This document shows, piece after piece, positions 1,008-23,419 of a DNA stretch of 23,419 nucleotides. Position 1 is the first letter of the stretch, and every line of letters begins with the position of its first letter. The translations under genes were made by a program, and so were the position numbers. The stretch comes from Ectocarpus siliculosus (lineage: Eukaryota; Sar; Phaeophyceae; Ectocarpales; Ectocarpaceae): contig FN648897.1 in assembly GCA_000310025.1 (NCBI GenBank), positions 1-23,419 of the forward strand, written 5' to 3'. Under the pieces are notes generated by a model. It worked only from the letters and a program-made list of their open reading frames with translations. It was not told the origin of the DNA and did no database searches.

Positions 1008-1334
1008 TGCTAGCAGACGGTGAATCTCCCATGCTGCTGCTTTCTCGAATGTTGAACGAGTCGATGACGTGTGTTGAATATCGCGTGAACAGTTGACAGT
1101 CCCGCGTATGACGTAAGTACCGCTAATTTGCGTGTACCTTATTTTCTCGGTGATGAATGCCGATGGTGGTGCTGACGGCGATGAATGCCGATGTAGTGGC
1201 AAGCGTCTCTTGTGTGCGTGCCTATATCTTGGCTAAGCTGCTGAAGAACCTGCCGAACTAATGGTTTGTGTACCGTTTACCTGATGTCCCGTCGAACTCA
1301 GGTCTTTCCTTCTCGAAAAATGGGGGGTTTGACA
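1008..1334 (-). repeat. Putative 5' LTR of the copia element (about 327 bp)
   Basis: On the minus strand this segment begins TGTCAAACCCC and ends in CA, the canonical TG...CA limits of an LTR, and lies immediately upstream of gag with only a short leader. A TATA-like ATATAGG occurs near 1221-1228. There is no second copy in the window, so the limits rest on position and the terminal dinucleotides only. Confidence 0.42.
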
Positions 1335-1354
1335 TTTTTGTGTAACGCCGTGAG

Positions 1355-2180
1355 ATATCTCATGGGCGCCCATGGGCCCCCATGGAACCCCATGAGGTCG
1401 ATATTATGGTGACCCATGGGGGTCCATGGGTCCCATGGGCCCCCATGAGAACAATCTCATGGGAACCCATGGGCCCCCATGAGGTCCAATGAGAATCCCA
1501 TGGGACCCCATGAGAAATCTCATGTATTGTCATGGGGGTCCATGGGAGCCATGGGTCCCCATGGACCACGATAAAAATCGATAATCTCATGAGATATCTC
1601 ATGGGGTACCATGGAAAACCACCCCATGGTGTCCCATGAGATTGGCCATGGGGTCCGTAAATATAATTTTTTATCGTTCGCCATGAGCCCTCATGGCGTG
1701 CTATGGGGCACCATGAGATCCCATGAGAAACAAAACCGAAAAAGCGAAAAAAGTGGAATTTAAATAAAAGCTATGGGCCTCATGAGGCCTGATGGCGCCC
1801 CATGAGGCCCCATGGGGCACCATGGGTCACCGTAGAGTCTACCAGTTTATTTTGTTAATTTCAATAAAATTGGTAGCCCGTGGGGGTCCATGAGGAAGTC
1901 GTGTCTCCCCATGGCGCCTCATGAGAACCGACGGGGTATAATTAAAATTTAACTATTTTATTTATTTCCTAATATTACGCGTTTCCCTGTCGGATATTTT
2001 TTTTTTTCAAATTTATCTTCGAAACCCCATGGGGTACCGTGGGATACCGAGGGTCACCATGGGTGACGACGAAGTGCACTATGGGTGGCCATGGGCCCCA
2101 ATTTTATGCTGGCCATGGGGCACCATGAGAAACCTCACGCATGTACCACGGTGGGGCACCATGAGCTACCATGAGAAAAA
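1355..2180. repeat. CATG-rich imperfect palindromic array
   Basis: By eye I count about 43 CATG tetranucleotides in about 820 bases, where chance would give about 3. Most sit in [C/T]CATG[G/A], forming CCCATGGG, CCATGG, CTCATGAG and CCCATGAG words separated by about 6-25 bases of C/G runs. The array is interrupted by short A+T-rich pieces near 1660-1770 and 1840-2020. Both strands read alike because the core is self-complementary. ORFs through it give Trp/Pro/Gly/His/Met-rich translations and are not genes. Confidence 0.9.
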
Positions 2181-2213
2181 TTTTATGATATTATGTAAAA
2201 ATAATGTACTTTT

Positions 2214-2500
2214 TTCCTGAAAACAATATTATTATATATATTTTATATTTATATATATATAAATATATAAATATATAAAATATAAATATTATCAATTATT
2301 ATATTATTATATAATTATATAATAATTATATATATATATAAAAAATATATATATATATATATATTTATTAAATTTATTTATATAAATATATATATTTAAA
2401 TATATAAATATATAAAATATAAATATTATCAATTATTATATTATTATATAATTATATTATTATATAATGTAGTTTTCTGAAAACAATAATATTATTATGA
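2214..2500. repeat. Near-pure A+T block with internal duplication
   Basis: Almost every base is A or T, largely alternating TA runs able to form cruciforms. A CTGAAAACAATA word followed by ATTATTAT occurs at both margins (about 2217 and about 2477). Together with the internal repeat this suggests that a unit was duplicated. No coding potential is visible. Confidence 0.9.
2261..2457. repeat. Exact 60-bp direct repeat pair (2261-2320 and 2398-2457)
   Basis: The two 60-base segments are identical base for base, offset by 137 bases, within the A+T block. The intervening 77 bases are TA-rich. Perfect identity points to a recent duplication or to continuing correction by unequal crossover. Confidence 0.9.
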
Positions 2501-5500: not shown

Positions 5501-5905
5501 ATATCCTCACGTTCACAGGCCCGCAAGACCACCGTCAGGTACGGATGGGAGGAACATGTCCCCAGTCACCAGTTCAGACGATACACCGTAGACATTTCCA
5601 CCGCCATCATCACCTACGATATGGTGGCCGTTTCGTATTTGTCCTGAGGAGTGTGTCCCAGCAGGATCACCACACGTCGTTTCCTCATCAACCATTCTTC
5701 CATTAAACCCCAACGAGTAGATTGATAGTGTGACGAGCACGAAGGGCTCTTTACTTGATAACGGGTGACACATGTAGCTGTATTGATAATACACTAGGGT
5801 ACGGCAGTGCCGGCGCCCTCGCCTTAACATAGAAATCGAAGCGCCACTCGCATCAGACTTATCTCAATCTGCACCCCTGTCCAACTGCGAACAAAACCGC
5901 TAAAG
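2501..5905. other. Region without a supportable gene
   Basis: Several open frames up to 185 codons occur (minus 3681-4238, minus 4711-5226, plus 5318-5647, minus 5513-5830), but none shows a recognisable domain. Overlapping frames on both strands are equally open. A (CTG)n run lies at 3523-3540, a short (GT)n at about 4840-4854, and a G-rich stretch at about 5180-5200. The part just left of 5906 must contain the 3' untranslated region of the transposase gene. A transposon end could lie here, but I could not identify one. Confidence 0.5.
3523..3540. repeat. (CTG)n trinucleotide microsatellite
   Basis: Uninterrupted TGC/CTG triplets, about five to six units. Confidence 0.9.
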
Positions 5906-6036
5906 TCAGAGGCGGAACCGAGGCTCCTCCCGGAGCAATTTCTCCCTCAGGAGTAGCTCGTTGTGTGTGAACATGTTGACCATCAGGGTGAATCTGTTCA
6001 TGGTGCTTGACATCTTGGAGACGCACGGTCCCAGGC
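5906..6036 (-). CDS. KDZ transposase last exon: helical C-terminus
   Basis: The acceptor CCTCCAG|GC follows a pyrimidine-rich tract and supplies the two bases needed to finish the split Gly. The exon encodes VSKMSSTMNRFTLMVNMF, THNELLLREKLLREE and a stop. The 'k.M....F......N' pattern is that expected after the N-S-S-E motif in KDZ proteins. The intron before it is 730 bases. Confidence 0.8.
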
Positions 6037-9000
6037 CTGGAGGGTACACAACAATGGAAACGCGTCGACGGTTCGAAGTAGAGAATAAGCATAGAGTCAG
6101 GAGGCGACGCCAACTCCCCCGACATTTGATCAAACGTCGATTAGCACGGACATCGGATAGAGCGCACAAACCTACGAGGTTGGAGGTGGGTTGATGCATG
6201 ACGAAGTCTTACACATAAAGAGCAATTTTACGGACGTATAATTCGGCAATAAACACCTCGATACTTTTGTTGACGTTTGGGTGCATGTATAGACGGGGGA
6301 ACTGCTGTGTACGACCTTACCCAAAACGTACAAGTCGTCTTGTTGTCGCAGGACAAAGTGAGCGTAATTATTAGGTCGCCGTTGTTGGACTGGACCCCCA
6401 AATCGAAATAACCCCGTATTCAGCACCCCTGCGTAACGCCTTCGAGTCCGACAAGCGCAAGAATTGCTGAGCGCAAGGTTCACATTGAATCTGTAGGAGG
6501 TTTTCGTACGAATTGACGGTCCGTGATACCGTCAAGACCACGTCTCGGAGCTCGCGGTTAAGATCGCTCGCTGTTGATTTCATGTAGGTATATGGTGTCC
6601 ACCTACAGTAAACGCCCTCATTTCACGACAAGACCTATTCGCCAGTGTACTTCCGTTCATTCCGCGAATCTGGGTTTAACGCGAATCCCACCCCGCCGGC
6701 GCAACCATCGTGTCAGTCAACAAGAGCCCCCACAATAGTTCGTCCCCGTGCCAATAACTGCTTTACCGTGGAGGATGGAGTTCGAAGATTCTGCCCGTGA
6801 TGAATTCCAGCGAAAGGTCAGCTCGTCGACCCCGTTGTTGATCCATAGCAGGGGGTCGTCTTTTCTGTTGGGCGAGCAAAACTCGTAGCAGTCGGGTTCG
6901 TCATGATGAAGCGCGTGAAAGCTTGCGGCAGTCATTAACGACGATGTACGAGCAACAAACGGCGACGGGGGGGCGTGTAGACGTGTAGGTTAGTGAGCAT
7001 GAATATGCAATCGAAGGTTGAACAAAATCCGGAGAAGGTCGCGGTGGCGTGAGCCACAACAGATATTAGTACCTCAAACGATAGCAGCTCCAACGGCAGG
7101 AGCGGTCCTAATGTTCTACATTATGTGGATTTGTTGGGTAGTTGATTCCTAGACGATTCAAAATTGCGCGTACTTCCGGCTACGACCTCATCGTGGTATG
7201 ATTTGCGTCGGCTTGCTTTCAAAGTTCTGGCAACGGGTAAAATCAGACGTTCATCTCACCGGTCGACAATGTTGATTGTCATGGCCCATGTGGGGTCCGG
7301 GTGGCACAGTAGGAATCTGCGCCTTTTGCATCCCCGGTCGTAGAACAGGATCCCTGGGCGGTGAGCAGGATGTTGCCAGATGTCGTCGAGAGCAGACGCC
7401 ACCTCTGTATCCCCTTCGAACTCGATGATAGGAGACATCCCGGCCATAATCCCGCAGCTCCACGTGCATATCAGGTATCCGAACGTGTGCCGTGGGCCGA
7501 GCATACTGCGTAGGTACCTGATGCGGCGCGGCTGTTCAAGATTGACGCACGCCGGGGTCAGCGAGATCGGTACGTTGCTGAAATGTAGACCTCCGATGCA
7601 CAGACATGACAGCGTTTTGCACTGAGGTTCCGTACGTTAGAACACCCAACTATTTGCTTGAACACGCTGACGCACACAAGACATGGACTGCAACACTCCA
7701 CAACAAGAACATGTACCTATTCATGTAGTTGGTACGCATCGGGACGCCCACCTCTCGAGCATCTCCTGCTGCCCTCGCAGCGCTTGTGGCATGCCACCCT
7801 CCTCTTCTTATCCATTGGAGGTAGTACCTTTCCCATGGTCTGTGAAAGGCGCAAACCAGACTGTCCTCCTCCCGCAGTCTAGGGCAGGGTGGGTCTGTGA
7901 TGTTGCACATGTGGCCTCTCTTTTCCTCGTGATAAGTGCAAAACCTGACACATGGTGTGCACCGAACGCCAAGTGTTAGACAGTTTTAAACGTCCAGCTA
8001 CAGCGGCGTTAGTCGTCAGGGGTAGGGCCTGTCTACGGCAGCAGGGTCGGCAACGTTGTCCCGCTCGAGATGATTGGGGTTATGGTTCGTAGACGACCAT
8101 CATCGTACTATTGGTCAGGTAACGATGGTGACACGACTGGATGACTTGGTAAAGCACACATGAATTGGTAATTCAACAAGTCGTAACGAACGATGACTAT
8201 CACCCAAGACCGCAAACAACCCACCCACCCACCCACCCCCATGTTCTACCCAGAGCCCGGTCCGTGGCGAGAGGCCTGTCAGGTCAAAAAGCTCACCTTG
8301 ACCCCCGTGTACCGCAGAGGTCATCGGCGCAGCCGTACGTCGCACACTTAGGCCTCCTCACTGCCGTCAACCCGTCGCATACTGCGCCTCGTACGTGGAC
8401 CTCGGTTCCGTCAACTTCGATCCGCTGACAGCACAACCTGCATTCGTGCCTTGTGTACAGCCCCTCTCTCTGGATGTCTTCCAACAAGATGTCTAGTTCC
8501 GTTAGTAAACCTTTCCAGTTGTTAGCTCCCGATAGGTTCCCGCGTTCGTCGAGAATTGAAACCTCGACTGGTCTATCGGCACGGATAGGCTGGCCGGCTG
8601 GGGGTGCGTGCCAAAAGGGTCCTGTTCAAGTGGGGCCGCACACATCGACTTAGATTGCAAACGATTCACGCCACTGGCGTACGCCGACTTTCATATCTAG
8701 TTCGTCGTGACCAAGTCTGACGTTAGTTTGGTCGTTCGTGTAGTGAGCTCATTTCTGAACTGAGTTTGACTTCAGGTGCACGAGCGCGCGCGGTCTGCCA
8801 CTGCGCGTATACGGGGTGGTAGGGACTACACTTAGAAGGGGGGATCCCGAAATGAGGATGCCCCCGCGCGATTGCTTTGGGAGTTGCCTTCTGCGGAGTG
8901 CGGACATGGGTATCCAACAATTGTCCCTGCTGTACGATGTTCTGCAAGGACCCGGCGTCTGGAGGGAGCGTCTCTACCGTCCTTTTCGTTTAGATCAGCG

Positions 9001-11019
9001 ACAATCCATCAGCGCACCCCCGGAAACGAGCCATGACAAAGCTGAGGAAACATCGAGAGGAACTTGTGCCAAAACACGACACTCTCTCGTCGAAATGGTG
9101 CGTTTACATTTGTGTAGATACACAAAGGAACGCCCGTCCAGAATGACACGCATGTTGCATATGTAACCGCCCCCTCGCGATGCAGCACGACCTTCAGTAA
9201 TCCTGTCGTTACACAACACACTAGTTGTGGGAACCAGTGCACGAGTATTTTGAGTAACGTGGTATACCTCTGCAGGACGACGACCGCCGGGTATTGCACG
9301 CTAGGGTTCAGTTGGAGGCTGTACGGGGGGGCGTGTGGACGCCAAGGGTTATAACAAGTAGCGATCTGGCATACCTTTGCATTGGCGGTGTTTTAACAAC
9401 GTCCAAATGGCCGAGCCCTCCAACAGGACACGTCCTGATAGCCGTGATGTTCCACTGCCCCGTTCGCGCGGGACGGTGCGGTGGTGGACGTCCGCTTGAG
9501 TCTGGAACCCTGCCCTGCATGATTAAACAATTGTACAGAGATGATAATCAACCATCTGTGTCTTGGCAGGTAGTACCATGAAGACATTAACACGCGTAAG
9601 GCTGTACTTTGCTCTTGTTCTAAAGCCTTGAAGGTACATCCCCGTACAGTACCACACTAATGATGTGCACCAAGTGCAGTCTGCCGGATTCTTATCTCCG
9701 AGAGAAAGTTTTACAGGGTGGGTTCCATGTGTGTTTTATAATTCCGGTCGTCCCTCCGTCCAGCTGACCATGATTGCCACGAGACGCGAGGCCGTACTTG
9801 GAGGCGTCATAGTGCTGCGATCTCGTGACTGAGTGCGTTCATTCCGTGCGGCCGCACCACTCGTGATATATTTGTTTTACAACAGGAATCGCGACTAACG
9901 CTGTGTGTGTGCAAACTACCACAAGATTCACGCAACATTGGTACTGACCCCACGTGTACCAAGACAATCCCCGACGTTGAAAACCTCCACTCCGCTGTTG
10001 AGTTTACAATCTCTATGGGTCATATACTGTGCAGCGGATGAGGTTTCATAGTTTCCCGACCAAGTGTGTACGGTAGGCTAAGGCTTTCTCATAGTAGCGT
10101 TCGAGTTCTGTCCACTGTGTACGACGACGACAGGAACGCTTGTAAACACAAAATAAACGGCTTGGCATTGACCGCCAAAAATCGGGTCATGATATCGTGT
10201 TCTATCCGAGGGGCACTCTGCTGACGTGCAACAAAAAACTTGGACAACATGAATTCGGCGTACAGGTACAGGCACACTGTAGGCCAACCAGCAGGGACCA
10301 CAACACGTCATCAGTTACGTATTAGCGTAGTCAACCGCCTGACAATGGAGCGTGTAATGATTCAGCCACGTTGGAGATCCTCACCTGGTGGTGGCCTGTT
10401 CGATGGCGACGTGGTCCAAGAAATTGGTACAGAAGATAGCATGCCCCGATTTGTTCGCTATGAAGGGAGGAAGGTCACCATCGGACCACGCATTGTGGAG
10501 ATGCCAGTCACACTGCCCGCCATCGTACACACCATGTACCACTCGCTTGTCGAACATGTAACGTGTCCCACATCCGAATCTACATGTCTTCACTATGTTC
10601 CACGCCGGGTAGCAATCCTCTTTCGCGTATACTGTTGCCCATTTAGACCTTACTACGAGGGCACGACCGCAGCATCTGGTCCTCTCCGATGTGAACGTTC
10701 GCGACAAGTACTGTGGACGCGAACCCTCGGCGGGTCGGGGGAATGAGGCGCCCATCGCCGTCGGAATATCTTCGAGCGGGGATCGATCAAAAACATCCAC
10801 AATGCAGTCGTACTGCGCGGAAGTTAGACTAAAGTTGTCACGGAATCTCCGTTCGAAGAGTCTGCTGAGTGTCACGCTCTCCGGCCCCCCCTCTTCCGTG
10901 AAGCGCATGTGGTTGTGCTGGCGAAGATGCTGCAAGAGCACGATCATGTCCGTGTCGGAAGTACCATGGAATAGGCCGTTGACGGCGGTGATCCTGTGTA
11001 GGTCCGCGAACAGTGTCAT
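5906..11019 (-). CDS. KDZ-superfamily DNA transposase with cysteine clusters, multi-exon
   Basis: The enzyme is predicted to cut and paste a KDZ DNA transposon, using an RNase H-fold catalytic core. Exons I can place on the minus strand are 11019-10385, 8621-8297, 7944-7717, 7505-7260, 6921-6767 and 6036-5906 (stop 5908-5906). Every junction from 8621 onward is phase-consistent: AG|GTGAGC to CAG|GT, AG|GTACAT to CAG|TA, CG|GTGAGA to AAG|CT, CG|GTAAAG to CAG|GC. Domain order is a CxC5-like cluster, a linker, a CxC6-like cluster inserted after an AVCDG motif, FYDRGC, VDRFH, RWNSSRAESSNS, then a helical C-terminus. The likely acidic triad is Asp of AVCDG, Asp of YDRGC and Glu of RAESS (inference from family). 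No stop or frameshift occurs in the placed exons. At least one exon between 10384 and 8622 is needed to bring the phases together and is not firmly placed. The start at 11019 is the first ATG of the open exon. Confidence 0.85.
6767..6921 (-). CDS. KDZ transposase exon: VDRFH to catalytic glutamate
   Basis: The acceptor GCAAG|C restores the Arg of VDRFH across the intron. The exon continues HH...C...CSP, then RWNSSRAESSNSIL. The 'N(S/T)S..E..NS' motif is the most conserved KDZ block, and its Glu (codon 6791-6789) is the predicted third catalytic residue. The donor is CACG|GTAAAG, leaving one base. Confidence 0.87.
7260..7505 (-). CDS. KDZ transposase exon: second catalytic aspartate (YDRGC)
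   Basis: The exon encodes TWSCGIMAG, then an EGDTEVASALDDIW helix, then GILFYDRGCK and NIVDR. 'CG.i', 'v...L...w' and 'YD..C' are successive landmarks of the KDZ core. The Asp of YDRGC (codon 7339-7337) is the predicted second metal ligand. The donor CG|GTGAGA splits the Arg codon of VDRFH. Confidence 0.85.
7717..7944 (-). CDS. KDZ transposase exon: second half of CxC6-like cluster
   Basis: The acceptor GTCAG|G completes the split Arg of RFCTYH. The exon then reads HMCNITDPPCP and SLVCAFHRPWE, which gives the 'FC..H......C...C....C...HR..E' signature seen in KDZ-associated CxC6-like domains. The donor AATAG|GTACAT at 7717 is chosen because it is the one that joins in frame with the next exon. 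An alternative donor, GAG|GTGGGC, lies just upstream but breaks the frame. Confidence 0.78.
8220..8240. repeat. (CCCA)n microsatellite inside a KDZ intron
   Basis: About four to five CCCA units lie in the intron between 8296 and 7945. Confidence 0.85.
8297..8621 (-). CDS. KDZ transposase exon: linker and first half of CxC6-like cluster
   Basis: The acceptor is GAACAG|GA and the donor CAAG|GTGAGC. The exon encodes 107 whole codons. A hydrophilic helical linker (NNWKGLLTELDILLEDI) leads into HECRLCC, then GAVCDGLTAVRRPKC and YGCADDLC. The CDG aspartate (codon 8376-8374) is the probable first catalytic acid. The cysteines open a zinc-binding cluster that continues in the next exon with RFCTYH. 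Confidence 0.82.
8622..10384 (-). other. Unresolved internal part of the KDZ gene
   Basis: Exon 1 leaves two bases over and the exon at 8621 needs one preceding base, so at least one intervening exon of length 2 modulo 3 is required. A 53-base candidate at 10012-9960 (ATAG acceptor, G|GTACAC donor) fits both phases and encodes SGVEVFNVG. Another open stretch at about 9640-9515 encodes ALRVLMSSWYYLPRHR, resembling the 'R..L..A...Y.L' linker of KDZ proteins. Neither is secure. Confidence 0.3.
10385..11019 (-). CDS. KDZ transposase exon 1: CxC5-like cysteine cluster
   Basis: This exon has 211 codons plus two bases. Residues about 115-121 read RCCGRAL and residues 145-154 read TCRFGCGTRY, matching the C..C-x(n)-C..C...Y layout of the CxC5-like cluster associated with KDZ transposases. 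It is followed by PFIANKSGHAIFCTNFLD, which resembles the 'P-F...S....F...FL' segment that follows the cluster in relatives. The exon ends at CCAG|GTGAGG, a strong donor, in phase 2. The ATG at 11019 is in good context, but an upstream exon cannot be excluded. Confidence 0.75.
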
Positions 11020-12642
11020 CGTCTTGACAACGGACGAAACGTACGATACCTGTAATAGCGGACGCGCAACAGTATATGTCCATCATTTCTCTGTGTCGTG
11101 GACGTTTAATGCGCGAAGAAGATGACTGTGGCGAGCGGCCCCTACATAGAACAAGGTAGGCGGAACCTGTGTTCCGCAAGCATTTTCGTCGGTTGGGTGC
11201 CATTTCCTCCCCTGGACCCTCGTAATCTCCTTGAGAGGTCAACCGTTTGCAACACGATTGGACGCCTACCTACTTGCAGGTCCTGCGGACAAGCACGTAA
11301 TAAATCGTCGCTGGATTGACCCCGAACGGTGGGAGCTGGGATCGTTAGGAAAACATTCAGCCGCGAAGCACCGCACCAAGCCGAAGGGGGTAAAGTGTGG
11401 TTTGAATGCGAATACATACGTTGCGTGAACCGCGGTCCGAAGGCACAGCTTTTCTGTCATGTCCGGGGGCTGTTCCACTTGATACTTAGATGTATTCAAA
11501 AGCCATGTTTGGGTTTCTACATGTCACATGGCCTGTTCGTATTGGTTCGGGGCGGTGACCTTCGAGATAAGCGTTCGAGCGCGTGGGTGGAGGTGTACTG
11601 CCGCTGTGCGTCATCGGGGTTTTGTGGCCGGGTAAGACTCAGACTCAATTCGCGTACTTGCGCCGCGCTTTAGGCCGTCGTCGCAAAGCCGTCTGCCCCG
11701 CATGCTGTTGCTGCTACTGCTGTGTCGTCCGGAAGCCGGTAGGTATAGCCATGCGCCAGGTGTAACCTGGCGGGTTTTTGGTTGTGTTGAGTGGCGAGAA
11801 CCGACTGCTGCCCAAACAAACGGTATCAAATTCCTTAGGGTTAGTGGTGGGCACACCTACCTGTACCAGCGAGAAAACCGTCGAGGACGTGTACGCCTAC
11901 TGCCTACTACTGCGCGTTAGGCTCGCCTCGCCTTCGTAGGGGCGCAACTAAAATAAACAAGTTTAAAGCTTGGCGCGAAGCGCGCACAAGATCGGTCGGA
12001 GAGATACACGCAGATGTTACCAGTTATTGATGCAGGCTCACAGACCAGGTCAACACTGCCGCTGCACACGCTCATACCTCACCCAACACGACGAGTCAGC
12101 CGTGTACGCAGGACTGCTGCAGTTTGGCAGCGCGGGGACGAGTGAGTGTGTTTTATGTTGTGGACGAATCTGTCTCTCGGGAACTAGCCGCGATATCTGC
12201 TGCTCCTCCTGCTGCTGCTGCCGCCGCTCTGTGTCTGTGCACCTTATTTTGTCGACCTTGCGGTCGTACCTGAGGCGTAGGGCTCTGGAAATCGCCACCG
12301 ACGTCCCTATGTGTGTTTTTGGTCGCCATTGGCCGACAGCGTGTGTAAATCTCGTTGTCTCTCTGTTTTCGGATGCGGCTGTTGTGGGTCAAAAGAATAT
12401 CGGCAACCGGACAGACGGGCGAAGTATTTATTGACTCGGGTGTCCTTGATTCACTCGCTTATCCGCTGCTAGCCGAAGGCAACGGGTTTCGAAAATCGGT
12501 CTCGATGCTTCGTGTGATTTATTCATTAGGCCGCCCTTGTCCCGCGGAAATGCGTACAGATCAGGGTCGGGCGTGTTACGGATGCATCTGTGTATACATA
12601 GTAAGCTCAAAAGACCGGCCCGTATATATGTTTCGGGTCATG

Positions 12643-12666
12643 CAGCAGCAGCAGCAGCAGCAGCAG
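12643..12666. repeat. (CAG)8 microsatellite
   Basis: Eight uninterrupted CAG units follow a TCATG. CTG-rich stretches also occur near 11702-11720, 12200-12222, 13140-13160, 13388-13412 and 18332-18348, so CAG/CTG expansion is general in this DNA. Confidence 0.95.
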
Positions 12667-12977
12667 AGTCGCCTCCCTCGCTGGCGGTGCTGCCGACAGC
12701 AACCAACCGTCTCTGACAGTAGTCGAATCCGACCGCGTATTATGCGTACCTTTGGCTGCCCTTCGTCCCCCACCGTCTCGTGTGCTGCTGTGCTGGTTTT
12801 CTCGTGTGTCGTCTACGAGTTTGATGTGCTCCTGCTGCTGTGCTACATAGGTCTTCGGAGGATTCCCGCTCGTCGTTGCCCATCAACCAGTAATATACAT
12901 GTGATTGGTTGGAGGACCGGTATCTACCCCGTCCTACAGCTGTAGTGCCCATACTAAAACTACTCCGTTGTCCTAAA

Positions 12978-13451
12978 ACAGTTCTTCCGTATAAAAAAAA
13001 AAATCTTCCTACTACACTAGTATTGCCCTTCGAATGTGTCCGGTTCCGCGCATTGTGGGGATGGCTCCCCGGGATCGTCAAGGTTTTGTACCTGCGCCGC
13101 GCTATTGATTGTCTTCGCAAGAGCCGCATCCCCTGTCTGCTGTTGCTGATGCTGCTACTGGTTTTATCGCGCCGAAGTCATGGGCCATCAATGACTTTTG
13201 TGCCTGTTGCGAGCGGTATCTACACCCCTTGGTTCTATTATACCTCATTCTTCCGTAGTATAAAAAGTAGTATTGCCCTTCGTATGGGTCCGGTTCCGCG
13301 CGTTATGGGGATGGTTCCCCGGGATCAACCACGTTTTGTACCTGCGCCGCGCTGTTGTTTGTCTTCGCAATGGCCGTATCCCCTGTCTGCTGTTGCTGCT
13401 GCTGCTACTGGTCTTATCGCGCCGAAGTCATGGGCCATCAATGACTTTTTT
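12978..13451. repeat. Diverged tandem duplication, about 250-bp period
   Basis: A segment starting TTCTTCCGTA near 12978 and ending CATCAATGACTTTT near 13201 recurs from about 13250 to about 13450. The core from TAGTATTGCCCTTCG to the end matches at roughly nine positions in ten. A GGTATCTAC word about 65-75 bases upstream of the copies (12916 and 13215) suggests the unit starts earlier, so the whole unit is probably longer than the well-matched core. Confidence 0.85.
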
Positions 13452-13618
13452 TTGTGTCTGGTGCATGATGTATTGTACCAGTAATATGAACACCCGTCAT
13501 GTATAAACAGCAGTCTAGACCGATTACTTCCTCCTTCGATGAAGTTTGGAATACTCGAGATGAGCTCGGACAGAAGAACGTACTGAGTAGAGAGGACGGA
13601 GCGGTTTATAATGTGAAG

Positions 13619-13651
<33 letters not shown>

Positions 13652-13655
13652 CAAC
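13619..13655. repeat. (ACA)n microsatellite, about 11 units
   Basis: An uninterrupted ACA/CAA run. On the minus strand it produces meaningless poly-Cys and poly-Val translations. Confidence 0.95.
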
Positions 13656-13717
13656 ATAGATAATTCATGCCTGACCAAGCCTGCCCGTTTATTTTGGCGG
13701 GAACGCCTGGTTGCCGC

Positions 13718-13802
13718 CCTACATGTGCTTCGATTCGGCGCAGATATATGCTGTGCAACCCTACATGTGGTTCGAATTCGGCGCAGATATATGCTGTGCA
13801 AC
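13718..13802. repeat. 42/43-bp tandem duplication
   Basis: Copy 1 (13718-13759) and copy 2 (13760-13802) both run from CCTACATGTG through CGGCGCAGATATATGC to GTGCAAC. They differ by one substitution and one inserted base. Confidence 0.93.
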
Positions 13803-14600
13803 TGCTGTATCTCCATGCACCGAGGACGGATTGAGCCCATGGAATCAGTTGTGGTGGCTCGGGCGGATACTTCATATCGAATGCACAAACAAGTCTTGTA
13901 CATACTGCAGTTAGGTGCCGCAATGGAGCAAGGGGTAGTAGAGTGCACCGAAACGGAGTGACGCGTCCACGTGTCCCAACTTCAATACGAGATGAAATGC
14001 CGTTGGATGATGGGTAGACGAACGCAGAGGTCGAATGAACACAGCTGTAAGTTGGTCTGTAACGAGCACATCATATCCGACGTACAGCAGGCGGATCGAC
14101 GTTGTCCTATATATGTAGCCTCTCCGTAGTCCGCCTAATAATCTACCAATCACGGTTTATTTGTCTCGGACGCTCATCATACGGTTGAAACTAGTTATTT
14201 AGTTGAGACGTGTACAATCACGTGTATTGGGCCTACGTCTGAATATCTTGGCATGCGTTTCGCCGGCTTGTCGCATACATCCCCGGCCCTCGGCTACAGC
14301 ACTCACCAGTTTGTTGGCGATGACCCCACGTCAGGCCCGTCGTCACAGGTAGGCTTTTATGTTTGTGTATTTCTTGTTCCTCTGTGTTCGCTGGACGTAG
14401 GTTTTGTAGTCTGACGTCGCCCTCCTGTCCAACTGCAACTGCTCATGAAGATGGGGGCGCCGTGAAATGAAATAGTGGTACGTAAGTACATACATAGCGA
14501 GCGTACAGTACAACATGTATTGATTGGTCCCAGCAAGATTGGTCCGGTCACCAGCAATGGAAGCCTATTTGCCGACCACCGGAATACCAACCATCCAACT

Positions 14601-15189
14601 ATGTCAGCAGACCTTGATCATCGGGTGGAGAGCGTCACTACTACTGCGTCTAGGGTCGATGTCGGACTTAGGGGCCTCGTTAGCTTCGTCGCCACTTCAA
14701 TTACGCACGACTTTCAATATGCGCGTCGTAGCGAGGACCCAAACTCCCAGACGGTCGGATTGGATGCGCAATTTAGACTTGTCGATTGTGTCCCGAGTGA
14801 TCGCGCGGGTCGGGCGGTTCTGACATTCGTGAAGGAAGCCTTGAGTCAGGTGCGCGTCACCGGGACTGTGACACTAGTGAACGGGCAGAACATCTCGCGC
14901 AGGGATCAGCTGCTGATGCGGATTCACCGTATTTTACCGACGGAATCAGGAGCGGATGAGGGCAGTTCCGTGGACACCTTTGTTGCACGGGTCGCGCACC
15001 TCGGGCTTGAGAGGCTTTGCGGTGGTCAAGTGGAACTAGAAGACTTCCGGCTTAGTGAACATGACTTGAGCGACATGGGAGCGATTATTGAGAAGACTAG
15101 AGCCGTAGAGCGCCAGGAGCCTCGCCCCAGCCAAGCTGCTCAGACTACAGCACGTACAGCCCCGGCCTCCTTGGGTGCTCGAACCCGAT
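14601..15189 (+). CDS. Unknown gene, exon 1: globular N-terminal region
   Basis: The exon has 196 whole codons of mixed, well-balanced composition with helical and strand-like stretches (RAVLTFVKEALSQVRVTGTV, DTFVARVAHLGLERL, EHDLSDMGAIIEK). This is the longest non-repetitive open frame in the window apart from the transposase exon. The donor CGAT|GTGAGA leaves one base, which the next acceptor (CCCCAG|CT) completes to a Ser codon. A GTG-initiated extension to 14475 is possible by frame, but ATG at 14601 is the first standard start. Confidence 0.7.
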
Positions 15190-18100
15190 GTGAGATGTCT
15201 TTCTGTGGCGTATTTTCTTCATGCTCGTTGCACCATTGCGAGTTTCGTAACGAACAGTTTGTGTACAGCATAATCGCGAACACTATTATCGTAGTTAGGG
15301 CGGTGACGGTACCAGACTAGACACCGTTGTTTGCTGGTCCTGACCGGGTGATGTTTAAGGAGCACGGGATCCTTTTAGCTGCGGTACGATGCAACATTGA
15401 CGTATGTGGGCTCCGTATGCGATTGATTTGTAAACTAAAGAAAAATATTGTATCCGCTCTCCCCAATCTCTTCCCGAAATCTTTCCTTCGTTTGTGTTCA
15501 TACCCCAGCTAGTTCTAGGCGGTCGATACGCGACTCGGCCGGGGACTCTGCTTCCCCGGCGTTGGCGCCCAACGCGCCGTCAGTCACTACCCGTTCTAGA
15601 ACGGCAGCGCCTGTACTCCGCAGCTCTGGCGCGAGCGCTGGGACGGACGTGTCGATACGGGGCGATTCCGGGGGGGGGCAACCATTCACCTCTCCAGCTG
15701 ATACAAGAACCAACGGTCGACGTCGAGAGCAGCAATATTCGGGGTCCTCCTCAGGAGTGGCTCCCCTTTCCGCTACCGACGCACAGTCATTACGCACAGC
15801 TCCACTACCGAGGCACCACCCCACTGTCGGGCCACGCGTTACGGATTCCGCGAGCGAACGGGCTGAGCGGCGCGCGGCGGGAGAACGAACGTCACTCGCC
15901 GCACAAAGAGAGAGGGCTGATAGCCTACGAGCGGCACTCGCAGCTTCCAGCGCGAACGAAGCAGGTGGCGGGAGCAGGGCAGACAGCGACACCAGGGTTG
16001 TACAGGCGGGCAGGCTTGCGGTGAGCAGGCTGGTAGCGGGCACTATTGATATTCTCCTGTACATGTAGGTCACTCGTCGAAAGACGCGACGGTTGCAAAA
16101 AGTGCAAGCACAAACAAGCATGTAGGATTAGTTTTTGCGTTTTAATTTTTACGTTGAGCCTAGCAATTAATCTACGAATGCATCTCTATGTTTAGGAAAA
16201 GAGTCTGAGACAGGTTTGCAACGTTTGCTTAGTGCTGGACGCGAACCATTGGCACGCATATCGTCACACGTCCGCAAACTGATTTGCCGCCCGTCAGTTT
16301 ACCCGTACCAACATCCCGGCACCCGACTGCCGGCATTTACGTAAACATGGGTTAGATCGCGTTTTCCCTCCAAACGATTGGATCTGAAAAGCGAGGATGC
16401 ACATCTATCCCGTTTGATACCCTACGTATTTCGCCACATCGTGATAATAACCTTTCGTAATGGGTTGGGGGTTGTCCCTTGCAGTCTCTACTTCCTGGGC
16501 GACGCGAAGGAGGTCCCGCGGGCATCCCAAGCGATGAGACCCCGGCGGCACAAGCGCAAGGAATGCAGGACGAGGCAGAGGTACCGAACAACCCACCCGC
16601 CGCCCCGTCGGTGAGTTACATGTACGATGGCCGCAATTTTGGAGTTCCCGTGGCAGCCAATCGAGCATAGGTGGACTTTTCGTTCCTCCGTCGAGGCCTA
16701 TGATAAGAAGGATGTTTGTTCGACCTGAACATGCGCTTCGCTAGGTTTAGAACAGGTATTCGCTGTGTAGTCGTGGGCCCATGCGATGTACCGTGCGTTA
16801 GTCTATACGTGTGTATGGACGAAGGCCCTCTAGTCTAGGTCAGAACGGAAATTCAAACGAGCACTTACTGCTGTCCGTTGAACGCATAGACTACACCATC
16901 GCGAGGCGCCGCCGCTTGTCGTTTGTGTATCCGTCCGCACGGTGCCCGGTGTAAAACGTTCCGATTGTCACCGTCTGTGACCATACCTTCTGTCGAGTCT
17001 ATCTGTATCCTTCTTATAGCGTGGGGTTGACATTCGCACCCCCCATCTATTGACCACCCCGGTGTCGATGTATTTTGATAGGTATGGCGTTGCTCTTCTT
17101 CCCGACCTCGCGCGTACGCAAATCCATACCATGTTGACTTCATTGTACTTCCCGAGGCGAAGCCTGTCTCTTGGGGCGCGCCAGTCGCGCAGACCACGAA
17201 AGCATACAACATACGCGCAGACCACGAAAGGGACCCTCGTTTTAACCACATATACATATATACAACGACGACCACGACCACGACCACGACCACGACAACA
17301 ACGGCCTACAAAATTTTGTTTTATAGGTACAGATATATATACATGTACGTACGATACACACAGTCCTTTACACCCGCGAGACCGATCGACAAAGATCGTT
17401 TACTGCACAACGAAGAGGATGCCGAAATGAGGAGGTGTGTTCATCTGAGTACTGGCCCTGCTCCAACCTCCGACGCCGCCGTTCGACACGGGAGTGTCGT
17501 TGTTCGTGTTTCGTAGTTACTGCGGGTGTGTGTGTGCCGGGGGGGGTTGGGTGGGTACCACTAATGCAACGTAGTGGACGTAGATGGGGCACCGTTCATA
17601 TTGTCTCCGCAATCCTCCGTCTTAACGGGCAGGTCACATCAAATGAGCAAGGTTCGGTGGTTGCGCCCGTGGGAACGTCCACCGGAAGTATCTTCGCACC
17701 CCCGGCGCTAGGAGAGCAGAACGGCTCGGACTTAGTGGATTCCAACAACGCCGCCATGTCCCCGGTGAGTTGGTTCTTTTTTCACGCTAGCTCGGCGTCA
17801 TTTGCCCCTCCTCCGTGTGTTCCATGTGTACAACAAGTTCAGACAAAGGACATGTCTTGGGGTTTTTTCTTTTAATAACAAAATTTAACGCGATGTCGAT
17901 GTCCAAATGAGGAGCGATACGGAAAGGCCCACCGCTATTACCAGAAACGGCCCCTCTTCGGGCAATGCGCGTGTGGTCTCGCGTCACCCGCGGGACCACG
18001 GCCACCCACGCCCGAAGAGGCCTTGAACGTTTGTGTCGTCAAGTAACCTTATGAAGAAGGCTGTGCTTTGGGGGTGGGTATACATGTGATCGTAGTTCGA

Positions 18101-20728
18101 CCGTTTGTGTACTGGCCGCACGACAAGCAGCGGCCGCTACACCCACACCCACACCCCCCCTGCTTTGGGTGCGGTTGGCAGGAACACCCAACGTGCATGG
18201 GCGGTTGTAGTAGTCAGGGTGCATTGTATCCGACCGTACGGAAATCCCGAGAGTTTGATGCCAAACGTATCCGCGAAAACAGGTAATATTTGCTGTCGGG
18301 TAGTGCCGTGTGTGCCGTGTAACAGGGGTGATTGCTGCTGCTGCTGCAGTTGATAGGCTGTGCGTCCTACCAAAGCTGCGCCAAACCTAACTGTCGTGTT
18401 CATGATATGCTACTACGGCCGATGTGTGCTGCGCGGATATGATCTAAGATGTTATTTGAGGATGCGCGTGGGATTTAACGCCATCCGGCCGTACGCGCGA
18501 GCCGCCGTTTCGTATGTAGATAACCTATACGGCCTCTACCTGTACGAAGAGGTATGTGTCGCTCATTGCGGGAAACAGGTCGTAACTCTCCCACGCGGAT
18601 GGGACCGTATTTGGTACGCATTGATGTCCTCCTCGATGTCCTACACAAGCATTTACACGTGGGACACTACCCTCTTGCCTTGCCCCCTTAACAGGCTCAT
18701 CATCCGGACATGCCGACGACGACGTCGCCAGAACCCGACCAGATCACCACAGCGAGGATCAAGGTCCAGACTTTCTACAAGTACCGCAGAGTGGGCGAGC
18801 CAGTGCATGACTTCATACGGAAGGCAGAGGTCGAAGTCGCTACCTACGAGGAGATGCAAAGGCAGCGATCTGTCGGAGCACCACTCCCCGCCGCAGCTGC
18901 GACCGGTGGCGGCGGCGGACGCTCATACGACGAGTCACGGCGCAGCGTGAACTCGGCGATGCAGGGCAGGGATTCGCTCGACGAGTCCCGTCCTGCGGGA
19001 GATGGGTTGCAGCAACCTCCCAGCCGTACGCCTGCAACGACTCTCCTGCCCACACCACCACCCGCCAGTATAGCCACCCAGCACGCCCACACCGACTGCT
19101 GGGGCGAGACTTATCGCCCCCCGCCCGGTTGTTCTGGACGTCAACGCTTAGCCTTCGACCAGAGTCACCATGTTCACCGGCAGCCCCCGCCGCCCCTGCC
19201 TGGTGTACCCCCGAGTTATGCCGTGCATCATGCCAATCGTAATGCAACTCAATTCAACGAAGGTACGCACCTCGCGATAGGCGTACAGACCGAGGGCATC
19301 ATTTCTTTTGCTGTACATAATTTGGCATCCGGATGTTCGTAATTATGTCGACACTGCCTTCACCAAGTGCTAGAGCGTACTCGCGGATATAACGGGGCGG
19401 TTGGTGTACAGGTGCGTGTGTCGTTTGTGTATTGAAAATTTAATCAACTTTCGATTTACACAACCCAAGCGTGTGTTGTGATGTGATGTGCTGCGCCAAC
19501 GAGGAGCTGGTGCTTGTGCGCAAATGGGCCTATTTTCACTACCACCTGCCACTCTTGCGCGTCTGCGTCGTTTGTCAGTGTGATGTCTTGGTCTCTTCGT
19601 ATGTACCGTAGCGCAAGAGCAGCACTACCACGTGGAGTGTGTGTCCCGAGGATGCGCCGGTAACCACGTATAGCAGTGAGAGCTTTCCATGCACCCGTCT
19701 GTCGGCAGCACAATGTGGCACGTTAAAGGCACGCGCCCGGTTGTTCGCATCGCATTCAAGCACGGTTCGTCGTCGCACCGGGTGCTCCATGCAGTCGTGG
19801 TCGTCGCCGTATCCGAACGTTCTTTGGCCGTCCACGTCTGGTCCACAATGCTGTACCGAAAATAAAATCCTAGCTTATATGTTCCCCACACCGGCATGTA
19901 GATTACAGTCTCGTATGCATTTGGCAAATGCGTTGTTGATGATGCCACGAGAAGCACGGGGATGACAAGTAATCCTGACCATCAACGCCCACCCCTCGCA
20001 CCTACCAACCCCATGTCTGTTACCTCGCGGCCGTCAGGGACAGAAGACCTTCTCGATACACTGGCCGAGCGAGTCCTAGTTCGGCATCCTTCGGTGGGTT
20101 ACATGAGAATGACCATCGCCGTTTATCTCGATCTGAAGCGACGGGCACCAGGGAAGGGGGCGTTGGCCCACATCCTGGCTGTGGCCCGAATTTCTAACGG
20201 GAGCGCGAAGACATTTGAAAGGTTAGGCCGACCATGTCATGCACAAGTGTGTTGTAAACATCCGTAGAGGTCGCTTATTCCGTTCTTTGCTTCCCCACTA
20301 CATCGAAATGGTCTATAGTTTGAGATGACATTCCGACGCACACGACGCTGGTGGTGTCGATTGACGTACCGGATTGCTTCTCCCGCAGTCAATCCCGTCT
20401 GCCTGGTTGTCACCAAAGTACCCAAAAACGCCGCTGTATTACAGCCGGCTTGACTTCCTCGGTTACGCCACAGTTGTCACCAAGGTCTCCCTGGACAAGC
20501 CAGACGTATGATTGAAATTCTGGGCAAGGGATCGCCGACTAACAGGAGATGACGGCCAGAGGGTCGGCAGTATTTCCTGCAGTCGAAACGGAAGCACAAG
20601 GTCCTATACGTCAGAGGGGGGAGGACACCACGCGGTCTATGTACATCGTCTATCGGTATATTCTGTATCACCTCTGCCACAGCAAGACGAGGTCCATGCC
20701 TCTCGTCACATACGTCCTGTTCCGCTGA
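14601..20728 (+). CDS. Nine-exon gene of unknown function (about 777 aa)
   Basis: I do not recognise the product. The exon model is 14601-15189, 15509-16020, 16485-16610, 17633-17764, 18218-18282, 18449-18551, 18695-19262, 20038-20093 and 20546-20728, with the stop at 20726-20728. All exons join in one frame (2,334 bases, 778 codons with stop). Donors are GTGAGA, GTGAGC, GTGAGT, GTGAGT, GTAATA, GTATGT, GTACGC and GTGGGT; acceptors are CCCCAG, TTGCAG, GGGCAG, GTCAG, CTAAG, TAACAG, GTCAG and TAACAG. Residues 1-196 look globular, 197-310 are Ser/Ala/Arg-rich and disordered, 312-346 form a charged helix, 368-453 are Pro/Ala/Gly-rich, 475-509 contain an aromatic helix (AVSYVDNLYGLYLYEE), 510-600 begin with a helical segment (ARIKVQTFYKYRRVG), and the tail contains MYIVYRYILYHL. 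The start is the first in-frame ATG of the open exon. It is divergent from the transposase and could be its partner. Some small exons may be wrong. Confidence 0.55.
15509..16020 (+). CDS. Unknown gene, exon 2: disordered Ser/Ala/Arg-rich region and charged helix
   Basis: The exon is low in hydrophobics and rich in Ser, Ala, Arg, Gly and Thr. It ends in a charged helix, SERAERRAAGERTSLAAQRE and following, long enough for a short coiled coil. The opposite strand is also open here (15498-16121) because of the GC-rich codon content, but it has no splice-compatible partner that I can find. Confidence 0.6.
17270..17293. repeat. (GACCAC)4 minisatellite in an intron
   Basis: Four GACCAC units flanked by partial units, inside the intron between 16611 and 17632. 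The minus-strand reading gives a poly-Val artefact. Confidence 0.9.
18695..19262 (+). CDS. Unknown gene, exon 7: helical segment and Pro/His-rich linker
   Basis: The acceptor CTTAACAG|GCT is preceded by a pyrimidine tract, and the donor AACGAAG|GTACGC is strong. The first 55 codons encode a helical segment (ARIKVQTFYKYRRVG, HDFIRKAEVEVATYEEMQ). The remainder is a Pro/Ser/His/Gly-rich linker with PPPPLPGVPP. The frame choice rests on this helix; the other open frame is an Arg/Ser-rich shadow that stops at 18950. Confidence 0.6.
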
Positions 20729-22225
20729 CTCGACCTCGGAACGCCCCCGGTGGACTAACGCCCCGACATTCTTTCCGTGCTCGCTTTTGAATTCGTGGAG
20801 TATGCAGGAACACGAAACTTCTCGAAGATATGGGCACCGTCTTGAACGAAGCTGATTTTTTCACCACAGCATCTAGGCTCGAAGCGGGTCTCGGGACCGC
20901 TGCTCCGGCCGCCATAAGCGCGCCTGTTCCGGCATCTGCCAGCACGCCTGCGCAGGGGTCTGCTTCATCACCAGGGACCTGAACAGGCCGCGCAAATCTA
21001 CAGCGGTACACCATCTTCAGTACGTAGCGACGCAATGCCTGGCTGTAACGTCAAGCTACGGCAACAACTGAACAGCACGCCCGGGTGTGTTCCGTATGAA
21101 AAATACGAGACGCCGGAAGGGCACCCAAGTAACATAAGAGTCTTACTTGTGCCTGTTCTTCTTTCTGATTTAGCACCCTTTGAATAATGAGACGCAAGTG
21201 TATGGTAGGTCGGAGTCCCCGCGCGTGCTTCCGAACACGGGCGGCGTCAGGCTCGACGGCCAAATAACGAGCGCCAGGCGGTCGTTCTCAGTGTCTCGTG
21301 GCGTGAAAGTGTTGTCCCCTCTGTAGGCCCCACCTCTGTGCGTGGAAGCAGACATCTGTTTCCGCACGGAGACTCAGAGACAGCGGTCGTGTACGTGTCG
21401 CTGAGGTATTGGTGTGTTGCCTTTTTATTTCCGTGTCGTTGTCATGAGCATAGCCCACACGTTGTCTCTTTCCCTTGTCTCTGTCCGTTCTGGTCTTTGG
21501 ACTTTTCTCTTGCTTTCCTGTCCTTTTTGCGAGTCTAGTCTTACCTCGCTTAGTGTGTATAGGCGAGCGTGTTGTCCTAGGCTATCTGTCGTTGATTTCT
21601 ACCTACTTGCTTGTGTTGTGGTCTTTCGTGTTTTCCTGTATTTGGTTATAGGTTAGTTTTCCTGTGATCACGGGAATCGACCGCGTAAAGTCTTGTACTA
21701 CGAAGTATGGACAGAATAAGGCACCGGGTGCCGAGGTCGGATCGATATTAAAGTGAAGACAAAAGCAACAGTAAGAAGAGGTAATCGACCGGGCTTCTAG
21801 AGCCGATCTCAGTCCACGCTGTGAACCTCCTAGAACTACAAGCAGTTGTGTTTACCTCAGACGATTCAAAGAGTTCTTACTGTTGTTCGATAATCTGCTC
21901 TTGTCGGTTACGTGATAATAGCCAGTACCTGCTGTAGACATGCGGTGGCTCAGATTGACTCGTTGTCGACGATCCCCATCGACCTCCACACTCCACACAC
22001 ACACCGGCATGCAGCACGCATCAGCGCCCGTCCTGCTCCCACTGCCGCTGCTCAATGCTTTTGGCGTGTTGGTCGGGCTCGGGGGTCTCGCACATGAACC
22101 ACAACCAGCTCAGTGTAGGCGAAATGGTCGCGCACGACCTCTCCGACGGGAACGGGTAGATCGTAGGCAGCCAGTTCCGAGCTGCAGGCATGTACCGTAA
22201 TTGTGTGTGCTATGGCACCGGGTGC
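19775..22225. repeat. Three exact copies of the 11-bp palindrome GCACCGGGTGC
   Basis: Copies lie at 19775-19785, 21721-21731 (extended to a 13-base palindrome) and 22215-22225. Related CGCGCCCGGTGCC and CGCGCCCTGGTGCC words occur near 22351 and 22263. Such a word is expected far less than once in the window by chance. It could be a binding site for a dimeric protein or part of a dispersed repeat. Confidence 0.6.
20389..20505 (+). CDS. Candidate optional exon of the unknown gene
   Basis: A strong acceptor (CTTCTCCCGCAG) opens a 39-codon stretch in the same phase as its neighbours, closed by GAC|GTATGA. Including it leaves an intron of only 40 bases before 20546, far shorter than all others here, so it may be alternative or spurious. 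Confidence 0.25.
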
Positions 22226-22719
22226 GATCGGTTTATAAATCCTTTCTGTCTTGTTCCTTTATCGCGCCCTGGTGCCGTAACACACATGGGTGCGTAAACA
22301 CCAATACCGGTGCGGTAAATGCAATTACACCGTTCCGTGATCGATGTATCCGCGCGCCCGGTGCCAAAACCACGATGTGTGCCATCAGACGCACAATTGC
22401 GGACTATCGTACCGCAAAACACATGCGGCAAAAAGCAGTGTACCAATTCGTGACTTCACCGTAACGTGTCGAATCACCCACAAACGGGATATCCCCACTT
22501 CGGAGCAAGTTTTGTCTGAAATGGAGGGAGTGTTGGCCTCTACAGAGATCCATCCTAACGACACAGGGATGCTATCGTCGAAAGAGCTCAATGCTGATAT
22601 CCAGCCGGGAGAATAGATCCGACCTGGCGATGGCCTTCTGTGGTTGAAGCCGGAGGTGCTTACTCATGCCACAGTTACAAAGATAACACCAAGTCTATTG
22701 TTACTCATATCATGCACAC
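20729..22719. other. Intergenic region between convergent genes
   Basis: This region holds the 3' ends of the plus-strand unknown gene and of the minus-strand dioxygenase gene. A strong acceptor (GATTTTTTCACCACAG) at 20869 opens an Ala/Pro/Ser-rich stretch to a TGA at 20980-20982, which could be an alternative last exon. A T-rich plus-strand stretch (about 21410-21660) translates to a hydrophobic Leu/Val/Phe/Cys-rich string on both plus frames, best read as composition and not a membrane protein. The short motif clusters listed separately lie here. Confidence 0.45.
22271..22440. repeat. Cluster of GTGCSGTAA / TGCSGCAAAA-like motifs
   Basis: GGTGCCGTAA (22271), GGTGCGTAA (22289) and GGTGCGGTAA (22309) are spaced 18-20 bases apart, about two helical turns. 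Further related words follow: GGTGCCAAAAC near 22360, ACCGCAAAAC near 22411 and TGCGGCAAAAAG near 22425. The arrangement resembles sub-terminal transposase-binding repeats or an operator array, but this is unproven. Confidence 0.45.
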
Positions 22720-23419
22720 TCAGTCGACCAAGTCTATTTTTCCCGTTGCCGCCTGCGGACAACCAAGCGCACGGAGAAAGATGTGGAGACGAGCAAGCCA
22801 TGCAGCAGTACAACCGTCGCCGCCGTGTACGGATAGACCATGCCATAGTAATCCCCATCCACGCGGAATCTGGCATTCGACAGCTCTACCCTGCTCGTAG
22901 TTCTTGTGGACGTCAAGATGGCTGCCATCCACGATACGAAGGATAGTCCCCTCTTGAAACGCACACAACGCGGAATATGGAGGCGGCTGAGGTCGACTGT
23001 TTCCGCGAGTCGCCGCCTGTGTTCGGCCCGCCATCTGATCGGTGATCTTCTCCAATACCTGGTCCCGGTGTAAAACCTGCCGTCGTTCGGACCATTGGTG
23101 CGAGACACGGAGCGGTGCGAAAGAAAAAATAGGTGAAATGGTTTTTTGCCGGGTGACCATGCGTGAACACCGTCGAGAAACCCGCACGAAACACATCGCT
23201 ACTGAGCCGATGTTCACTTCACCTGTGCCAAGAGTCCCTCTAGACTGAGCAAGCAAGTGCTTATCTCCGCGAGGATCCGATCGTACCCCGGGTTGTCGAG
23301 AGCCCACAGCACGTACACCAGCGTTTCTTCCATGTCACCGGAGACACTACCAAAATCAGTGCCCAGATCACTAAGGGGAATCATGAGCCTGTCCTGACCC
23401 TTTATTCTCGTGTATCTCC
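22720..23419 (-). CDS. Fe(II)/2-oxoglutarate-dependent dioxygenase (partial, 5' end off window)
   Basis: The predicted enzyme couples 2-oxoglutarate decarboxylation to oxidation of an unknown substrate. One exon runs from the right edge to 23223 and ends LLAQ|GTGAAG in phase 0. The next starts at 23076 after GGCAG, so the join reads LLAQ-VLHRDQ. HRD (His codon 23070-23068, Asp 23064-23062) is the HxD iron motif. It is followed by YSALCAFQEGTILRIVDGSH, then IPRGWGLLWHGLSVHGGDG with the distal His (22827-22825), and RLHIFL with the 2-oxoglutarate-binding Arg (22791-22789). This spacing fits double-stranded beta-helix dioxygenases of the phytanoyl-CoA hydroxylase-like kind common in algae. Whether it acts on DNA, as TET/JBP enzymes do, cannot be told. 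The frame stops at 22722-22720, or splices out at CTCC|GTGCGC (22772). It faces the unknown gene tail to tail. Confidence 0.75.

Follow-up and report, generated by a model that had tools for sequence, protein, structure and literature searches.

Does the consecutive array of a KDZ-type transposase gene, a plus-strand gene and an oxygenase-like gene on contig FN648897.1 of the brown alga Ectocarpus siliculosus represent the contents of a single mobile element? The window analysed here is this entire contig (C333, 23,419 bases), which was compared with a 189 Mb assembly of 492 contigs, cited below by their C numbers. Transposase blocks occupy the minus strand from 5906 to 11019, a multi-block gene begins at 14601 on the plus strand, and an oxygenase-like gene lies on the minus strand from 22720 to past 23419, where the contig edge truncates it and exon 1 carries on in C297. 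This order and these strands, proposed in a preliminary description made from the sequence of the window, hold in open reading frames (ORFs) and exon comparisons. We lean towards the view that the window from 1323 to its right edge is most of one KDZ-type DNA transposon of giant size, 22 kb or more, with a two-gene cargo.

The case for a mobile unit begins at its left end, GGGGGTTTGACATTTTTGTGTA (1323-1344, plus strand), which is defined by the starts of copies, by four flanks and by genome-wide matches to the end word. Twelve longer copies begin at 1315-1323, and other rows begin further inside. The terminal 21-mer has 14 matches in the genome at up to two mismatches, 12 of them exact, with at most one per contig. 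End 1323 is present at four distinct insertion sites (the window, C365/C362, C91 and C130), where C362 and C365 share the same flank and count as one site. Because this end stands at four unrelated flanks and each copy continues into the KDZ gene, the results support a large block that is mobile at its left side, KDZ gene included. In seven rows, similarity to the copia-like flank breaks off at 1319-1322; C143 and C122 each have one further inner piece. The preliminary description had proposed a possible composite transposon. The left end and its four flanks bear out a mobile unit with the KDZ gene inside it, but not a composite in the strict sense of cargo flanked by two elements: no second copy of the left end was found in the window, whose right flank is missing, or in the 16.4 kb beyond it on C297.

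Positions 1-1322, the insertion flank of the unit, hold what remains of a copia-like gag gene, matching Retrotran_gag_2 at E 9.5e-6 with 25.6 bits, below the cut-off of 27. Copies of this flank on C94, C143, C165 and C122 stop at 1322.

Repetition of the block is far above chance. Copies at 92-99% DNA identity, in pieces of about 4-13 kb, are found on C365, C362, C91, C130, C433, C363 and C297. Among these, C363 holds 13773-23419 in one piece, and C433 covers 11689-21714, interrupted by one insertion at 17258. The middle gene is confined to the window, C363, C433 and C297, and the near-identical oxygenase to the window, C297 and C363. It is likely that the mobile unit also encloses both of these genes.

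Six conserved minus-strand blocks of the transposase are open in the window. The N-terminal block (10384-11019) falls in the open frame 10384-11082 and has a tentative start codon, ATG, at 11017-11019. Blocks A (8322-8570) and B (7770-7952) each hold part of a CxC6 cluster, and a relative matches CxC6 over them. Block C (7259-7548) carries YDRGC, and block D (6738-6926) carries FHxxxH...C...C, RWNSSRAESSNS. The last conserved block (5906-6022, with the stop codon at 5906-5908) is an open frame that by eye resembles the end of a relative on C455. Blocks A to D, four of the six, are aligned in A2, an alignment of four sequences comprising the window and in-genome relatives. YDRGC is probably catalytic, and the N-terminal block may resemble CxC5. 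What the preliminary description had called an apparently intact transposase is seen here as six open blocks, and its intactness is putative.

The class of the transposase is assigned through its relatives. Pfam was searched over the minus strand at 5900-11400 and 19000-23419 and, elsewhere and on the plus strand, with selected ORFs or blocks. One of the four members of A2 matches CxC6 at E 6.9e-8. This member must be the C30 relative, 54% identical to the window transposase, because it is the only other member of A2 with cysteine-rich blocks. A composite of exons from C21 and C30 scores 30.5 bits with CxC6, above the cut-off of 27.5, and the C455 relative has a KDZ match below the cut-off (E 0.027). 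Because these relatives match CxC6 or KDZ, the window transposase is classed by kinship as KDZ/CxC6-type.

The KDZ genes of this genome belong to more than one family. ORF 7259-7636, which contains block C, gives 76 genome rows including the window itself, and seven of these derive from the block studied here (window, C362, C365, C91 and C130). The four other contigs are 95-98% identical to the window over most of this ORF; apart from short side pieces, all other rows are at most 72% identical. These 69 rows represent other families, and neither neighbour gene, middle gene or oxygenase, has a match within 1 Mb of any of them. The nearest sister KDZ gene, on C123 (75% DNA identity), resides on a contig roomy enough for both neighbours, and neither is present. 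Because neither gene lies near the 69 rows or on the contig of the C123 sister, the trio is a feature of this KDZ family and not of the KDZ elements of the genome in general. KDZ copies without the two neighbours, which the preliminary description regarded as telling against a shared element, do exist in the other families, but the contigs of the near-identical copies end or change before 14601.

The oxygenase-like gene consists of two minus-strand exons separated by a GT-AG intron (23077-23222). Exon 1 (23223-23419), with donor CAG/GTGAAG, is cut by the contig end, and its open frame runs about 386 bases further on C297. Exon 2 with the stop codon (22720-23076), the start of which is set by an AG acceptor and the alignment with C16, encodes H-R-D at 23062-23070, a distal H at 22825-22827 and R at 22789-22791. 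Presumably, these HxD...H...R residues bind the metal and the cosubstrate. A search of the genome with the oxygenase gave six rows, namely the near-identical window, C297 and C363 and the weak C16, C4 and C24. The frame is open in all three near-identical copies, with identities to the window of 100% (rounded) and 97%. The C16 gene is 29% identical to the window oxygenase and shares HRD...H...R, with spacings from HRD to H and from H to R of 79 and 15 residues against 81 and 12 in the window. A viral origin was considered and set aside: scans with two short patterns per alignment turned up no relatives of the transposase or oxygenase alignments among viral_contigs. Nor did such a scan of genome_contigs turn up any relative of the oxygenase alignment in prokaryotes. 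On C16 (L045, 956-3787, minus strand) the distant relative sits in a 944-residue open frame with low-complexity parts, about 2.1 Mb from the nearest KDZ row.

The relatives also point to a family for this protein. The C24 relative matches PhyH below the cut-off (E 0.015, 16 bits against 22), and the C16 stretch matches no oxygenase family in Pfam, giving just unrelated models below the cut-off. A profile of the window oxygenase with its C16 and C24 relatives (A3), searched against PDB at E up to 10, returned 20 rows. Twelve are named iron/alpha-ketoglutarate or alpha-ketoglutarate dependent dioxygenases, each at E 0.26 or above. Three with uninformative names (DhiD and, twice, oxidoreductase) rank first, the best being DhiD at E 0.03, and five are unrelated. 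The PhyH-like oxygenases asqJ and okaE in PDB share with the window protein a GSH stretch, the distal H and the R, although the matches are weak and the N-terminal half of the window protein has no oxygenase match. Profile A1, which omits C24 and includes 17 residues of probable intron, retrieved no oxygenase from PDB. Because the oxygenase matches are gone without C24, the assignment is tentative and leans on the C24 fragment. For the double-stranded beta-helix fold expected of this family, structure prediction of exon 2 alone, including the same 17 residues, reached a mean predicted local distance difference test score of just 36.9. We tentatively regard the protein as PhyH-like and not TET/JBP, and it may be an active enzyme. 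As cargo, a small-molecule or protein oxygenase is more likely than a DNA-base oxidase of the TET/JBP type.

The middle gene is less well defined. Its first plus-strand block (14601-15200, 200 amino acids) belongs to no known family and has three copies, on the window, C363 and C433. A possible second block (15508-16020) lies in the open frame 15439-16065, where C433 has a 2-base insertion. A possible later block (18701-19261) has four copies, a ratio of nonsynonymous to synonymous substitution rates (dN/dS) that is not below 1, and a stop within the matched frame in C297 and C433; ORF 18692-19339 accordingly gives four genome rows (window, C297, C363 and C433). The possible last block (19959-20225), also weak, is an open frame with one base missing at 19997 in C297, C363 and C433. 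A Pfam scan of selected blocks, the first among them, found no match. Because dN/dS exceeds 1 in one block, C297 and C433 carry stops, and the last block has the missing base, the exon model is weak and the gene may have decayed. Thus the novel plus-strand gene of the preliminary description is present and its tested blocks match no Pfam family, but its exons are poorly fixed.

Between the transposase and the middle gene lies a repeat of about 980 bases (11908-12889), which is probably an old insertion. It recurs 20 times at 71-75%, besides a few partial copies, and one copy, on C25, lies about 11 kb from a KDZ row.

The left part of the unit has an architecture of its own. An array of CATGG and CATGAG words follows the end (1351-2200; repeat families D2, D4, D7 and D9). 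The words number 23, 44 and 14 in the three 500-base bins from 1001 to 2500, and fewer than six in each remaining bin of the window. An AT-rich block occupies 2213-2495. Positions 1323-5090 form a left module common to other elements: C24, C4 and C176 share about 1317-4147, while the pieces in common with C123, C147, C89 and C367 reach as far as 5090, after which those contigs go on with different sequence. Past their common 1317-4147, C24 and C4 run on together with other DNA; C4 beyond its match is N. A segment at 5084-5432, present in five other loci at 83-93% identity, meets the left module at the common word GGGCTT. Within it, 102 bases (5205-5306) are missing in C91 and C130 and, with slightly shifted limits, in the five other loci. 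Because the left module is common to other elements and the join at 5084-5090 appears chimaeric, the unit resembles a mosaic that was assembled before it moved. A LINE-like truncation of the left module was considered and dropped, because N gaps account for the variable break points on C21, C172 and C3.

Beyond the window, C363 runs on for 381 bases, 99% identical to C297, and stops within a very abundant repeat some 560 bases long. From the window end, C297 extends for 16.4 kb of known bases, made up of low-copy DNA and nested elements, and then 7032 N. A part common to C297 and C273 (R 2860-14240, counted from the window end) was examined as a candidate right end and rejected, since it resembles a separate element that carries a nested one. 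The 16.4 kb extension contains one loose match to the left end (a 19-base word with up to four mismatches) at R 9411, inside a nested element.

Several further features were encountered along these contigs. The repeat of about 560 bases lies on C297 about 360-920 bases past the window end and has 2406 first-look candidates; its size is similar to that of RTEX-N1 of Ectocarpus, about 600 bp (PMC12477816). C297 also holds, at L012 909-6932 (reverse strand), a nested 6.0 kb DNA transposon with inverted ends of about 65 bases and many copies in the genome. This transposon is absent from the C273 copy; it has TAA on both sides, and the diverged empty site reads GAA. The target duplication of Harbinger elements is given as TNA (PMC12477816). 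The C273 copy likewise lacks a perfect 66-base palindrome that lies 14039-14104 bases past the window end on C297. Several break points of the unit (C433 6895-8160, C363 near 3003, C297 R 2860, and C273) carry ends of another element family, whose words resemble GGATGGTCGTCGTGACGTGAC.

Under the preferred reading, the KDZ transposase would recognise the ends of the element, the left one being at 1323 beside the CATGG array, and would move the block through a DNA intermediate. Its cargo would be the orphan gene on the plus strand and the PhyH-like oxygenase gene on the minus strand, and the right end would lie beyond the latter. We infer that this KDZ transposase is the one that moves the block. 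One unit is the simpler reading.

Comparisons of divergence give this reading some support from coding constraint. They used alignments of at least 1000 bits, with six of eight rows retained; C362, which shares its site with C365, was set aside, as was the short row C130_6500. All six share the window and are not independent. Coding blocks diverge less from the window than the rest in three comparisons (C363, p 0.0008; C433, p 0.002; C91, p 0.002).

Several results weigh against this reading. In the other three comparisons, coding divergence is not significantly lower (C365, p 0.31; C130, p 0.08; C297, p 0.54). Values of dN/dS are 0.37-0.63 for the KDZ gene and 0.31-0.63 for the oxygenase, from very few changes and never significantly below 1, and they reach 1.07 to 1.65 in the middle-gene block that has a stop in C297 and C433. 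Neither enzyme is recognised by Pfam directly: the window transposase has no KDZ-related match, just a chance-level one to Defb50 (E 0.03-0.06), and the window oxygenase matches no family at E up to 1, hence neither TET/JBP nor any oxygenase. The preliminary labels 'KDZ' and '2OG dioxygenase' stand through the CxC6 and KDZ matches of in-genome relatives in the one case, and through HxD...H...R, the PhyH match of the C24 relative below the cut-off and weak PDB profile matches in the other, but not through Pfam matches of the window proteins themselves. Nor was the far boundary found. Following C363, C297 and C273 past the window revealed no right end. A terminal inverted repeat was sought by fuzzy matching of the left end in contig stretches and by a genome-wide pattern search at up to two mismatches; neither gave an opposite-strand partner on the contig of any of the 14 left ends. 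No target duplication was found, in an assembly that yielded no copy with both flanks. The inverted ends and target duplication enclosing all three genes that the preliminary description envisaged have thus not appeared, and its three-gene order is not repeated on other contigs, as the KDZ gene and both neighbours are together in the window only. Other copies stop short: C365 ends at 14195 and C130 at 12538, C433 begins at 11689 behind an N gap, and C91 switches at 9818, without N, to 2366 bases of other sequence. C363 breaks at 13773, also without N, and on the other side are other DNA with a CCATGGT word array and then the end word of another family.

These breaks suggest a different arrangement, in which two repeats adjoin. 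A KDZ element would end at about 11-14.5 kb, a second repeat would carry the middle gene and the oxygenase, and the neighbourhood would have been duplicated. The occurrence of KDZ and cargo on one contig in the window alone agrees with this proposal, as do the 75% sister KDZ on C123, which lacks the cargo despite having room for it, and the real break in C363 with the CCATGGT array immediately to its left. That break could be the true boundary between KDZ and cargo, or it could be a later insertion. It adjoins the end word of a family that is inserted at several other places, so a later insertion explains it too. Moreover, C433 and C365 overlap at 11689-14195, and neither breaks at 13773. We judge two adjoining repeats to be somewhat unlikely, though deserving of serious attention.

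Rather less probable is that the block was spread by segmental duplication, or that the left module (1323-5090) is the real mover and the KDZ gene its captured cargo. The latter finds favour in the continuation of C24 and C4 with other DNA after their shared 1317-4147, and in the chimaeric-looking join at 5084-5090. However, giant Ectocarpus families without transposase homology have been reported (PMC12477816), so that KDZ-less relatives are expected in any case, and four different flanks at exactly one end fit simple segmental duplication poorly. It is also conceivable, at a very low level of probability, that the window is a mosaic of decayed repeats in which the middle gene and the oxygenase no longer function. 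Damage is present among the copies. The transposase blocks of C365 and C362 have single-base insertions (at one site, and one may be an assembly error), the transposase ORF of C91 carries a stop, and the middle gene is interrupted in C297 and C433. The transposase lesions are in line with a published account in which giant families of Ectocarpus frequently have pseudogenes for transposases (PMC12477816). Against general decay, the oxygenase frame has stayed open in every near-identical copy.

If the window from 1323 onward is one giant transposon, its closest counterparts are already described. Ectocarpus KDZ elements reach up to 30.3 kb, and giant families have additional transcribed genes and nested insertions; some giant families are without transposase genes (PMC12477816). 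The unit studied here has the same KDZ transposase type, a length over 10 kb, additional genes, nested insertions, an often broken transposase and transposase-less relatives. It differs in that the published accessory genes are mostly of unknown function, and the word 'dioxygenase' is absent from the main text of that source. Among the literature matches listed, judged by title and the opening of the abstract, none places a PhyH-like oxygenase in a KDZ element. The kind of element is therefore known in brown algae, while the oxygenase cargo may be the new part. The preliminary claim that the arrangement would be new is narrowed to this cargo, since Ectocarpus is already known to have giant KDZ elements that carry accessory genes (PMC12477816).

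The same source describes an expansion of EsV-1-7 domains in brown algae (PMC12477816). This assembly has 150 matches to these domains (150 scored of 880 candidates), and 14 control genomes have none, which points to a brown-algal type of genome.

A second counterpart is found in fungi, where TET/JBP genes occur in Zisupton, Kyakuja, Dileera and other transposons (PMC12730594). Target-site duplications are 7 bp for Kyakuja and 8 bp for Zisupton, and terminal inverted repeats are present in Zisupton but absent in two described Kyakuja families (PMC12730594). Both systems place a KDZ-type transposase beside a gene with the iron/2-oxoglutarate oxygenase pattern. In contrast to the fungal enzymes, the kin of the window enzyme are weakly PhyH-type, and TET/JBP is not matched. 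DNMT1, DNMT3 and DNMT5 are reportedly missing from brown algae, DNMT2-like tRNA enzymes being the exception to a general lack of DNA methyltransferases, but the sister group Schizocladia has DNMT1 and 5-methylcytosine (PMC13076208); 5-methylcytosine is negligible in Ectocarpus (PMC12477816). Because of the reported lack of DNA methyltransferases, the fungal TET/JBP role is not simply transferable, an argument that depends on the host being a true brown alga. The parallel with fungal TET/JBP elements drawn in the preliminary description is accordingly confined to layout, as Pfam does not place the enzyme in TET/JBP. By analogy with the fungal transposons, the PhyH-like oxygenase might counter silencing by acting on some mark besides 5-methylcytosine, such as one on histones, in RNA or N6-methyladenine; such a functional parallel in a lineage without cytosine DNA methylation is an idea that we consider unlikely.

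Should the three genes not move together, the window would be another example of the giant KDZ elements known from Ectocarpus. Should they do so, a KDZ element would be paired with an iron-dependent oxygenase outside of fungi, from another enzyme family and in a clade reported to be without DNA methyltransferases. Carriage of an oxygenase by such elements would then be decoupled from a need to remove 5-methylcytosine, and the oxygenase-like gene would provide a concrete gene to test.

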